Shown: positions 2,214 to 8,315 of the stretch, one piece after another | How the letters are laid out: every line of letters begins with the position of its first letter | Position numbering within the stretch: the stretch's first letter is position 1 | Source of the DNA: a virus | IMG/VR virus record: IMGVR_UViG_3300037584_004943 | Span: 1 to 55,322 of that record | Length of the DNA: 55,322 bases | Reading direction: 5' to 3' (one strand) | Position numbers and translations under genes: made by a program | The notes under the pieces: model-generated | Database searches by the model: none | Told to the model about the DNA's origin: nothing | What the model saw: only the letters and a program-made list of their open reading frames with translations

Positions 2214-2253
2214 AGTGTGGGTGGAATCGAACCACCATTAACCGTTCACACTT
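2214..2253 (-). ncRNA. tRNA acceptor/T-arm-like minihelix
   Basis: Minus strand: AGUGUG (2252-2247) pairs with CACACU (2219-2214). GGUGG (2236-2232) pairs with CCACC (2224-2220), stacked directly on the first helix, with a 7-nt loop UUCGAUU that fits the tRNA T-loop consensus (UUCRANY). A 10-nt linker replaces the D arm, anticodon arm and variable loop. There is no CCA, and no matching 5' acceptor strand was found upstream, so it is not a complete tRNA. It begins inside the UAA stop of the 2252-2482 gene. It could be an RNase P/Z-type processing signal, a tRNA remnant, or an attP-like copy of a host tRNA 3' end. Confidence 0.65.
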
Positions 2254-2482
2254 AGTCTACTTGGCACTCTCTCGCCCAAGTCGGAATATTATTTGAGTTG
2301 GTATAATTACCATACTTTTGGAAACATTCCATTTCTTCTAGTTTCTCTTGATTTAAAGAGTAAACACCGTCGTGGTCATATTTAATGACGTCACCTTTTT
2401 TGTTAGTAAACTGAATCACTAATTCTTTACCAACCATTCCTTTTGAGACTACAAATCTCTTTTTTTCTACTACATTTGACAT
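2252..2482 (-). CDS. Small protein, paralogue of the 3630-3845 product
   Basis: 76 aa. It aligns along its whole length with the product of 3630-3845: KRFV(V/I)SK near the N-terminus, the block ECFQKYGNYTNSNN and a terminal P-x-WAR. The two are clearly a duplicated pair. Small, mixed charge, beta-type N-terminal half; no known domain. The tRNA-like minihelix overlaps its stop codon. Its promoter is probably the motif at 2706-2738, shared with the 2490-2684 gene just upstream. Confidence 0.75.
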   Translation of the reverse strand: MSNVVEKKRFVVSKGMVGKELVIQFTNKKGDVIKYDHDGVYSLNQEKLEEMECFQKYGNYTNSNNIPTWARECQVD

Positions 2483-3363: not shown

Positions 3364-3421
3364 ATGTAAAAGTAGGTAAATCGTTTAGTGAATAGAAATC
3401 GTTAGGAGTTACTACTCTCAT
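3335..3421 (-). CDS. Possible micro-ORF, 28 aa
   Basis: The ATG at 3421 lies inside the 36-aa gene (3402-3512) in another frame and opens 28 codons (MRVVTPNDFYSLNDLPTFTY...). It ends at the TAA within TGGATAATATA of promoter copy 4. Composition is protein-like, but overlap with a promoter on one side and a gene on the other makes it uncertain. Confidence 0.25.
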   Translation of the reverse strand: MRVVTPNDFYSLNDLPTFTYKLNTILVG

Positions 3422-3512
3422 TCTCTTGTTCTATAACGAATTTTTCCATAAAGTAACAAATTGTACCAGTAATTGTAAGAATAGTAATAATTTCTAAAAT
3501 GTATAATAACAT
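3402..3512 (-). CDS. Micro membrane protein, 36 aa
   Basis: The ATG at 3512 opens 36 codons. Residues 1-21 (MLLYILEIITILTITGTICY, then F) form one hydrophobic membrane-spanning segment, followed by an acidic tail (EKFVIEQENESSNS). The start lies 16 nt after repeat element A and about 70 nt after the hammerhead cleavage point, so its mRNA may carry a ribozyme-generated 5' end. Single-span micro-proteins are common phage early products; function unknown. Confidence 0.5.
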   Translation of the reverse strand: MLLYILEIITILTITGTICYFMEKFVIEQENESSNS

Positions 3513-3527
3513 ATAATTTAATTTAGT

Positions 3528-3573
3528 GTGACATTAGGTAGTTAAGTAAAGAATAGTAATACCCTTTTGTCAC
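3528..3573 (-). repeat. Imperfect repeat element A, GTGACA...TGTCAC ends
   Basis: 46 bp bounded by inverted ends GTGACA/TGTCAC. It shares with element B (4171-4215) the ordered blocks GTGACA, AAGGGT, TACTA, CTT, TTAA, CTAATGTCAC (minus-strand reading). It sits 6 nt after the hammerhead and 16 nt before a start codon. Probably an operator or leader element; strand is assigned by the downstream gene. Confidence 0.6.
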
Positions 3574-3579
3574 TGTTTT

Positions 3580-3629
3580 GTAATAGACTACCGAAGTAGT
3601 TTCGACTATTGAAGTCTCATCAGTATTAC
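3580..3629 (-). ncRNA. Hammerhead ribozyme, type I
   Basis: On the minus strand all invariant core positions are present in order. Stem I strand GUAAUA is 3629-3624 and CUGAUGA is 3623-3617. Stem II GACU/AGUC (3616-3613, 3607-3604) has loop UCAAU and the canonical G10.1-C11.1 pair. GAA is 3603-3601. Stem III ACUAC/GUAGU (3600-3596, 3591-3587) is capped by UUCG and includes A15.1-U16.1. C17 is at 3586, and stem I returns as UAUUAC (3585-3580), a perfect 6-bp complement. Predicted cleavage is between 3586 and 3585. Stem I can extend past an internal loop (ACUUU with AACAGU), which could contact loop II as in active type I hammerheads. It begins at the base after the stop codon of the 3630-3845 gene. 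Activity is inferred, not shown. Confidence 0.92.
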
Positions 3630-3845
3630 TTATGAAAGTCGAGCCCACACAGGTAAGTTATTACTGTTAGTGTAGTTACCGTATTTCTGGAAACACTCCA
3701 TAGTTTCAAGTTTCTCTTGATTGATTGAGTATACATCGTCATGATTGTAAGTGAATGTACCTTTTTTAGTTGTGAATGTAATTTCTACATTTTGTCCGAT
3801 TAGAGATTTTGAGATAACGAATCTTTTCTTTGTCAATTTAGTCAT
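3630..3845 (-). CDS. Small protein, paralogue of the 2252-2482 product
   Basis: 71 aa. Shares KRFVISK, VYS(I/L)NQEKLE and the long block ECFQKYGNYTNSNN with the 2252-2482 product, so a gene duplication is evident. No known domain. The start lies 34 nt downstream of promoter-like copy 5. The hammerhead ribozyme starts immediately after the TAA stop, so the mRNA 3' end is predicted to be made by self-cleavage and to retain most of the ribozyme. Confidence 0.75.
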   Translation of the reverse strand: MTKLTKKRFVISKSLIGQNVEITFTTKKGTFTYNHDDVYSINQEKLETMECFQKYGNYTNSNNLPVWARLS

Positions 3846-3878: not shown

Positions 3879-3911
3879 TATATTATCCAATGTTAGTCGT
3901 ATTTATATTGT
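3879..3911 (-). promoter_or_regulatory. Phage promoter-like motif, copy 5
   Basis: Minus strand: ACAATATAAATACGA, 7 nt, TGGATAATATA. It lies 34 nt upstream of the start at 3845. Its transcript would cover the 3630-3845 gene, the hammerhead, element A and the 36-aa membrane protein. Confidence 0.8.
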
Positions 3912-6499: not shown

Positions 6500-8071
6500 A
6501 TGGAATACAATCTCCCTAGCGAGATCGTCAAAGAGCTTAATTTTGGCGATGAAGCTAAAAATAGAATTATTGCTGGCGTAGACAAGTTAGCAAAAGCAGT
6601 AAAATCAACACTAGGAGCATCTGGAAAGTGCGTTATCTACGAAGACGCGCGAGGAAACCCTGTAATTACCAAAGATGGTGTTACAGTTGCTCAATCAGTA
6701 GTGTTGCTTGACCCAGTAGAAAACTTAGGAGCAACTCTTATTAAAGAAGCTGCGCAAAACACAGTGAAAGAAGCAGGTGATGGTACCACTACGGCTACCG
6801 TCCTTGCTGAAGCACTGTTGAAAGAAGTTAATAATGAAAACTGGAAAGATGCCTCTATAAGAGAAATTAAAGAAGGCATATACTCCGGCCTTAAAAAGAT
6901 TAACGAATATCTTGACGGCAAAGCTATTAAAGTTGAAGGAGACATGCTTAAAAGTGTATCTGCTATCTCATGCAATAATGATGAACTATTAGGATCGATT
7001 ATCGCTGAAGCTTACGATAAAGTAGGTAAAGACGGCGTGGTATTGATGGAAACATCTGAAACTGAAGAAACCTACGTTGAATTAGTAGATGGCGTTCAAA
7101 TAGATTGTGGATTAACTTCTCCACATTTCGTTACAAACACAGAGAAACATAAATGTGAACTAGAAAATCCTTTAGTTCTTATAGTATCCTCTGAAATCCC
7201 TAACATACGTAAAATCCAAACAATATTAGAACATGTTATCAAACAAGGTAGAGCCTTACTTATTGTAGCACCTGTTGCTCAGCAAGTAAAATCTGCGTTA
7301 CTTATGAATAAAGTAAAAGGTAACATTAAGGTTAACATTGTTGATCTACCAGGCTTTGGACCTACTAAGAAGGACTGTACTGAAGATTTAGCTATATTAA
7401 CCGGTGCTACTGTAATAAATGAAGAGCTAGGTGATGATTTAGATCTTATTAGCGTTGATCATTTAGGAGAAGCTGAGTTTGCTACTACAGATGATAAGAG
7501 CACTGTTATAACGCTAGAAGAGATGAACGAAGATATTGAAGAGCGTATTGATGAGGTAGTCAAGAAGATCGCTGATGAAAAGAACGGGTTTTTAAAGAAA
7601 AAGCTAGAGTCTAGATTAGCCATGCTATCTGGTAGCGTTGGCATCATTAGAGTTGGCGCTGATTCTAAAGTAGAGCTTAAAGAAAAGAAAGATCGCGTTG
7701 AAGACGCTATATATGCAACAAAAGCGGCACTGAAAGAAGGCATTGTTCCCGGCGGTGGTGTAGCGTTGTTAAACGCCTCTCAAAAAATTTCGACCGACAA
7801 CGTCGGCGAAGAGATTCTTCTAAAAGCTATTAGAACTCCTTTCGACACTATATTAGCAAATGCTGGTATAGAAGTTATGGATGGAACTGTAGATCATGAA
7901 GGTTATGGTAAAGATGCTATAACTGGAGAAAGAATTGATATGATCAAATCAGGCATCGTAGATCCCGTACTTGTTACCAAGTCGGCGCTGAAAAACGCGG
8001 TGAGCGTGGTATCAACCATCATCTCTGCAGATTGTGTAATTTCAAACATCCGAGTAAATGAAGGCAGTTAA
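6500..8071 (+). CDS. groEL: Chaperonin GroEL (60 kDa subunit)
   Basis: 523 aa, full-length group I chaperonin that folds proteins in an ATP-driven double ring. The ATP site is intact: ITKDG (Asp59), GDGTTTA (Asp94) and RVEDA with the hydrolytic aspartate at about 402 (E. coli Asp398), then GIVPGGGVALL. The bacterial GGM tail is missing; it ends SNIRVNEGS. The C-terminus overlaps groES by 14 nt in another frame, so the two are coupled. Order is groEL-groES, reversed from bacteria. Likely folds capsid or other virion proteins. Confidence 0.97.
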   Translation: MEYNLPSEIVKELNFGDEAKNRIIAGVDKLAKAVKSTLGASGKCVIYEDARGNPVITKDGVTVAQSVVLLDPVENLGATLIKEAAQNTVKEAGDGTTTATVLAEALLKEVNNENWKDASIREIKEGIYSGLKKINEYLDGKAIKVEGDMLKSVSAISCNNDELLGSIIAEAYDKVGKDGVVLMETSETEETYVELVDGVQIDCGLTSPHFVTNTEKHKCELENPLVLIVSSEIPNIRKIQTILEHVIKQGRALLIVAPVAQQVKSALLMNKVKGNIKVNIVDLPGFGPTKKDCTEDLAILTGATVINEELGDDLDLISVDHLGEAEFATTDDKSTVITLEEMNEDIEERIDEVVKKIADEKNGFLKKKLESRLAMLSGSVGIIRVGADSKVELKEKKDRVEDAIYATKAALKEGIVPGGGVALLNASQKISTDNVGEEILLKAIRTPFDTILANAGIEVMDGTVDHEGYGKDAITGERIDMIKSGIVDPVLVTKSALKNAVSVVSTIISADCVISNIRVNEGS

Positions 8072-8315
8072 CGATTATATAGTTGTAAATAAAGAAAAGG
8101 TTGGGCCTAAGAAAATAGGTGGTTTAATATTAACAGAAGATCTAGACGAAGAAAACAGATATATTAAAGCTACCATAGTTTCAACTGGTAACTTAGTGCA
8201 AGGATTAAAGGATGGTGATATAGTCTATTACGATAAGCATGCTGGACATGGTATTACCTGGAAAGATACGATGTACCAAGTGATAAGAGGTCGCGATGTA
8301 GTTTTAGTAGAATAG
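8058..8315 (+). CDS. groES: Co-chaperonin GroES
   Basis: 85 aa, slightly shorter than the usual 95. N-terminal NDYIVV strand; a mobile-loop region (KVGPKKIGGLILTED) with the hydrophobic G-G-L-I tripeptide that docks into GroEL; then the barrel with ATIVSTGN, GDIVYYD and terminal DVVLVE. It overlaps the end of groEL, ensuring co-expression. Forms the heptameric lid of the phage chaperonin. Confidence 0.93.
   Translation: MKAVNDYIVVNKEKVGPKKIGGLILTEDLDEENRYIKATIVSTGNLVQGLKDGDIVYYDKHAGHGITWKDTMYQVIRGRDVVLVE

Follow-up and report, generated by a model that had tools for sequence, protein, structure and literature searches.

The polycistronic early mRNA of phage T7 is cut between its genes into single-gene messages by RNase III, that is, by a protein enzyme of the host. 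Clusters of hammerhead ribozymes have been described in prophages; cleavage in vitro was shown for some of them, and a triple from Agrobacterium also cleaved in vivo when cloned in E. coli (Perreault et al. 2011, PMC3088659). The same study proposed that clustered hammerheads process long phage transcripts (PMC3088659).

We analyzed a stretch of viral DNA of 55,322 nucleotides (IMG/VR record IMGVR_UViG_3300037584_004943), which is called the window here, and in which a type I hammerhead ribozyme had been predicted on the minus strand. The fold itself belongs to a known ribozyme, and clusters of it in phages are also known. The copies described here form a variant group with constraints of its own and a tight layout at the stop codon of the upstream gene. 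A search that lay largely outside subscription journals and preprints found no earlier paper on this variant group, and a prior description is possible. By analogy, the ribozyme may be a protein-free counterpart of the T7 RNase III sites, which it would resemble in dividing an early polycistronic RNA between its genes into single-gene messages.

The prophage clusters resemble the present group in that several ribozymes flank single genes or short blocks of genes (PMC3088659). Such flanking is not found in the window, which holds one copy, but it is found in 105 related loci among those listed. The examples of Perreault et al. mix types I-III, and about 40% of the hammerheads in their study are thought to be pseudoknotted (PMC3088659), whereas the phage group here has one type and gives no pseudoknot signal. 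It also differs from those clusters in that the end of the upstream ORF overlaps or touches the ribozyme. With the Rfam family Hammerhead_1 (RF00163) the group shares all core nucleotides, the three helices, the opening at stem I and the GUC cleavage triplet, but its stem I is fixed at 6 bp and has neither a closing loop nor an outer helix. RAGATH-1-hammerhead (RF03152) has the same CUGAUGAGACUU...CGAAAC...GUC sequence as the window, but for the 5' outer hairpin of that model no counterpart was found in the phage family. The group, which Rfam misses at its curated thresholds, shows a layout of one gene and one ribozyme in many loci. If our reading is true, message cutting that needs no protein enzyme may occur in a considerable number of aquatic phages.

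The hammerhead of the window and its detection

The features of the locus are listed in Table 1. Read on the minus strand from 3629 to 3580, the ribozyme is GUAAUA-CUGAUGA-GACU(UCAAU)AGUC-GAA-ACUAC(UUCG)GUAGU-C/UAUUAC, where the slash marks the predicted cut. The original prediction held that every invariant hammerhead position is present, and all of them could be read directly: C3 U4 G5 A6 N7 G8 A9, G12 A13 A14, H17 and the pairs A15.1-U16.1 and G10.1-C11.1. The UUCG-looped stem III and the perfect 6-bp stem I were likewise found as described, and stem II has 4 bp. Helix I does begin immediately after the UAA, since the stop ends at 3630 and stem I starts at 3629. The three helices are supported by covariation, and the helix with the open end is stem I, so that the ribozyme is of type I. 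In contrast, the proposed extension of stem I past an internal loop was not supported: among 113 diverse relatives, neither an outer stem I helix nor a stem Ib gave a signal above controls with swapped flanks. A pseudoknot of loop II with either flank was also not seen above control.

Table 1. Features of the hammerhead locus and its surroundings in the window
Feature	Position	Strand	Basis or remark
Type I hammerhead ribozyme, 50 nt from stem I to stem I	3580..3629	-	direct sequence reading, covariance model
Stem I, 5' strand GUAAUA (partner 3585-3580)	3624..3629	-	sequence and covariation
Catalytic core CUGAUGA (C3 to A9)	3617..3623	-	invariant except N7 in 67 sequences
Stem II GACU/AGUC, loop UCAAU (family loop UNANU)	3604..3616	-	alignment
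Core G12 A13 A14 (GAA)	3601..3603	-	sequence, alignment
Stem III A15.1 CUAC UUCG GUAG U16.1	3587..3600	-	sequence and covariation
C17; predicted cleavage between 3586 and 3585	3586	-	consensus position, cut inferred
Stem I, 3' strand UAUUAC; predicted new 5' end of downstream RNA	3580..3585	-	sequence and covariation
Upstream 71-aa ORF	3630..3845	-	UAA stop 3632-3630; relatives in 69 viral loci
Downstream 36-aa hydrophobic ORF	3402..3512	-	ORF reading
GUGACA...UGUCAC element between ribozyme and 36-aa ORF	3528..3573	-	independent of ribozyme
Putative promoter-like repeat AAATACGA-N-GGATAATAT, upstream of 71-aa ORF	3880..3904	-	sequence repeat

The core pattern occurs at one place in the window, where 0.19 chance matches are expected. 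In thermodynamic prediction the 50-nt core alone folds as the hammerhead, whereas for a 66-nt stretch an alternative fold is slightly favoured (-10.2 versus -9.5 kcal/mol for the hammerhead), in an energy model that ignores core and tertiary contacts.

Rfam 15 at curated thresholds gave no match in the window. In a search of 601 bases the sole Rfam match was RAGATH-1-hammerhead, which scored 23.2 bits where the gathering score is 56.3, and Hammerhead_1, of which the cut-off is 34 bits, gave no window match up to E=10. The original prediction had named the lack of an above-threshold match of the Rfam hammerhead models at this region as one of two outcomes that would refute it; taken literally, this is the outcome obtained, by a test that is insensitive here. 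At gathering thresholds Rfam also found nothing in 13 other hammerhead-rich loci, including those with five (L092) and nine (L168) copies. Because relatives in these 13 loci are missed equally, the failure of Rfam indicates low sensitivity and not absence. When the search was limited by E-value in three loci, the copies appeared as sub-threshold matches of RAGATH-1 or Hammerhead_1. Related phage copies scored 20-27 bits against Hammerhead_1 (cut-off 34), and an E-value scan of five pelagiphage loci gave no hammerhead over its Rfam cut-off. We made a custom covariance model from 67 diverse phage copies, one row of which is the window sequence. This model found a single copy in the window at 71 bits (E=6e-16), a value that is partly by construction, the window row being in the model.

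The phage family and selection on the RNA

The family was collected by pattern scans of IMG/VR and from relatives of the 71-aa gene. The scans brought the collection to at least 515 distinct hammerheads in at least 304 loci, 312 of those listed being diverse, and the full descriptor gave 0 matches in 4.1 Mb of dinucleotide-shuffled related loci versus 515 in the real ones. The group is common in aquatic phage contigs. Its bearers include phage records without a relative of the window's terminase, although several of these records are short fragments. One stem II pattern was found in just four stretches in the genomes of 84,980 cellular species, which means that at least this form is essentially viral. 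A Saccharibacteria MAG contains three hammerhead-like motifs, apparently of type III (L195 at 2034 and 2747; L198), each located after GCAGTTTAGCTTAGCTA or nearly so. A BLAST match in Sulfolobus virus STSV1 covered 20 nt within a long ORF and was taken as chance.

Of the 312 diverse copies listed, 281 have a stem I of exactly 6 bp, and most have a 4-bp stem II closed by a loop of 5 nt. A C occupies position 17 in 276 copies and an A in 35. The base preceding stem I is A in 295. We considered whether this A is a by-product of the stop codon, but it is also present in 68 of the 73 copies in which the stop lies elsewhere. The A therefore belongs to the ribozyme. A tertiary contact may involve this conserved A beside stem I and a conserved U at the first position of loop II; that the two contact each other is our guess.

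In the 67 diverse copies, 98.6% of the pair cells are standard pairs, 14 of the 16 pairs vary on both sides, and the covariation score is 0.849 compared with 0.167 after shuffling. Pairing is required by the descriptor used for the collection, and the test was therefore repeated on 163 candidates picked by the core motif alone. A perfect 6-bp stem I was present in 150 of them, while 16.9 are expected when the 5' strands are swapped between loci; stem II was paired in 156, as against 60.9 with swapped partners. A natural example is given by three variants of Elemovirus, isolates from one Flavobacterium host, which are otherwise near-identical over 211 nt. In these variants stem II changes from ACU..AGU to GUU..AAC, that is, by two compensated pairs, and N7, the one free core position, changes from T to C; the other ribozyme positions are identical. 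These comparative results argue strongly that the ribozyme functions as RNA.

Relatives of the 71-aa protein were found in 69 IMG/VR loci, and in 16 of these a hammerhead lies directly after or near the stop. Between such copies stem III has been swapped as a whole unit with its pairing kept. In the other 53 loci, some of which end at contig ends, there is no ribozyme at that spot, and it is thus dispensable or replaceable there.

Might the sequence of the window be an inactive relic or a chance match? It does lie below the Rfam cut-offs, but the 71 bits in the family model, the lack of any shuffled match and the orthologous copies at the same stop codon, with stem III swapped yet paired, make this the least probable of all readings considered.

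Arrangement at the stop codon and proposed function

Two co-directional ORFs enclose 135 of 180 copies. The upstream ORF ends between -24 and +4 nt from stem I in 229 of the 288 copies listed: its end is inside the ribozyme in 158 and within 0-4 nt in 71, and a gap of more than 4 nt is seen in just 59. In 37 of the 288 the stop is the UGA within the core CUGAUGA. Part of this is expected in any case, since the motif itself contains stops that would end an ORF entering it; a null was computed for this effect. The distance from the cut to the first downstream ATG has a median of 26 nt (quartiles 22-32; 293 copies listed). Thus the "fusion" of ribozyme and stop codon claimed for the window recurs as a rule across hundreds of loci in phages. 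The claim of a type I hammerhead at a stop codon between small genes, which are co-directional, was also borne out, and the comparative evidence shows selection at the RNA level.

More than one ribozyme was found in at least 105 loci, and none of the 105 listed carries them on both strands. Neighbouring ribozymes are separated by a median of 531 nt, with exactly one ORF between them in 99 of 205 intervals listed, and one locus (L446) has 11 ribozymes in about 6.3 kb.

We consider it likely, from the sequence comparisons, that the element is a cis-acting type I hammerhead which punctuates a polycistronic marine-phage transcript by cleavage at the predicted site. That is, after the passage of RNA polymerase the 50-nt RNA would fold and cut itself after C17 (3586). 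The upstream message would keep its stop codon and obtain a structured 3' end, namely the ribozyme body with a 2',3'-cyclic phosphate, and the downstream message would start with a 5'-hydroxyl and a short leader ahead of the next start codon. Where a phage has many copies, one long RNA would become a series of single-gene messages, the advantage probably being that stability and translation are set separately for each gene. The sequence, the conservation of the fold, the order of stop, ribozyme and start and the rules for strand and array are observations, and from them we infer cleavage in the cell, the chemistry of the ends and the effect on stability.

It is possible, though we think it clearly less probable, that the main role of the ribozyme is to give the upstream message a protected 3' end, or to trim read-through, and that the release of the downstream message is incidental. 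The ribozyme adjoins the upstream stop and not the downstream start, as the 158 and 71 copies given above show, and L008 and L035 have a promoter-like motif after the ribozyme, which could make the next gene independent of the cut. However, the downstream leaders are also tight, and most adjacent ribozymes are only one or a few genes apart, both of which fit better with the punctuation of the transcript.

The upstream ORF usually terminates on the ribozyme or within it, even at the core UGA or with a mini-ORF in pelagiphages, and for this reason we also thought of gating by translation. A terminating ribosome would keep the 5' half of the ribozyme open, the cut would be restricted to the time before the upstream gene is translated, after it, or between two rounds, and the stop codon would act as a switch for the processing and decay of the message. 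We regard this extension as rather improbable.

Two other readings are much weaker. In the first, the ribozyme would be a boundary for cassette shuffling, that is, a recombination site between early-gene modules for which RNA activity is unneeded. After the stop of the 71-aa gene, the slot indeed holds in different phages the ribozyme, a GUGACA element, a promoter-like motif or a tRNA-like sequence, and the downstream genes differ. But compensated changes erode identity and keep the fold, which is the opposite of what homology-driven recombination selects, and the strand rule is strict; recombination may at most be a side effect, and as the main role it is very unlikely. The second, which seems to us slightly more remote, is that two ribozymes together free an RNA of the length of a gene, which is then closed into a circle by ligation, as happens in retrozymes. 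Tandem copies on the same strand with one gene between them exist, and in principle the ends left by type I can be ligated. Against this, the window has a single copy, no RtcB was found in 21 of these phage records (host ligases are possible), and circular or spliced products were sought and not found for the prophage clusters (PMC3088659).

In the slot after the 71-aa homologue, the tRNA-like sequence was seen in L062/L063, and a GC-rich hairpin with a repeated GTATAGCA in L016, L026, L027, L036, L049, L064 and L066.

Neighbouring elements and cultured phages

The 71-aa protein belongs to no Pfam or PHROGs family and had no tblastn match among named phages. A 76-aa ORF (2252-2482, minus strand) is paralogue-like to its gene and has no ribozyme after its stop. 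A 41-aa ORF with a GTG start that runs across the ribozyme (3523-3648) was taken as spurious. GroEL-like (Cpn60) and GroES-like ORFs adjoin each other at 6500-8315, among the first plus-strand genes.

The putative promoter-like repeat, AAATACGA-N7-GGATAATAT, has five copies on the minus strand of the window (3888, 3340, 3023, 2715 and 547), each shortly upstream of a small minus-strand ORF, and is also present in relatives such as L008 and L051. One copy precedes the 71-aa ORF and none lies between it and the 36-aa ORF in the window; thus these two ORFs may share one transcript. From the size and position of the 71-aa gene and the repeated promoter-like motifs, it is probably an early gene.

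From the cut to the start of the 36-aa ORF there is a leader of 73 nt, whereas about 26 nt is usual; the extra length is due to a second conserved element that lies in this stretch (3573-3528). This GTGACA-N~34-TGTCAC element has two copies in the window (3573-3528 and 4215-4171, both on the minus strand) and about 45 in relatives (L008, L015-L076), and it often occupies the exact slot that the ribozyme has in other phages. We considered a structured-RNA role for it, but its arms are invariant in 36 copies and show no covariation. A DNA site is therefore as likely as RNA, and the element may act in the DNA, as a binding site, and not as an RNA.

Cultured phages also carry the hammerhead. Elemovirus, which infects Flavobacterium sp. 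BAL314, has one copy, and the region is present in 68 of 68 database records. HTVC019P, HTVC131P, HTVC022P, HTVC304P and Jormungand of Pelagivirus have one copy each (E from 1e-9 to 2e-11), and the Pelagivirus copies are located upstream of MarR, integrase and RNA polymerase genes. With these isolates, and in particular with the natural compensated variants of Elemovirus, the question is testable in infected cells. By sequence reading, the frame that precedes the ribozyme in HTVC131P, HTVC022P, HTVC304P and Jormungand is a mini-ORF of 3-4 codons with a Shine-Dalgarno-like sequence; at about 2478 in L206 and 2980 in L207 this is GGAGG/GGGGG (ATGGGTAACTAA; ATGGAAAAGTTCTAA). HTVC019P has a possible second, divergent hammerhead core, CTGACGAGGACACGCAGACGCACAGTCCGAAAC (L205, 994). 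In Elemovirus (L199, 2431-2496) and, just before 2167, in an IMG/VR contig (L153), there is an unannotated 21-aa ORF, MRAI(I/L)(K/R)FLEELAK(N/T)CP(S/R)ET(K/R)W, the UAG of which extends onto the first ribozyme base; the Elemovirus records annotate instead a short antisense ORF over the ribozyme.
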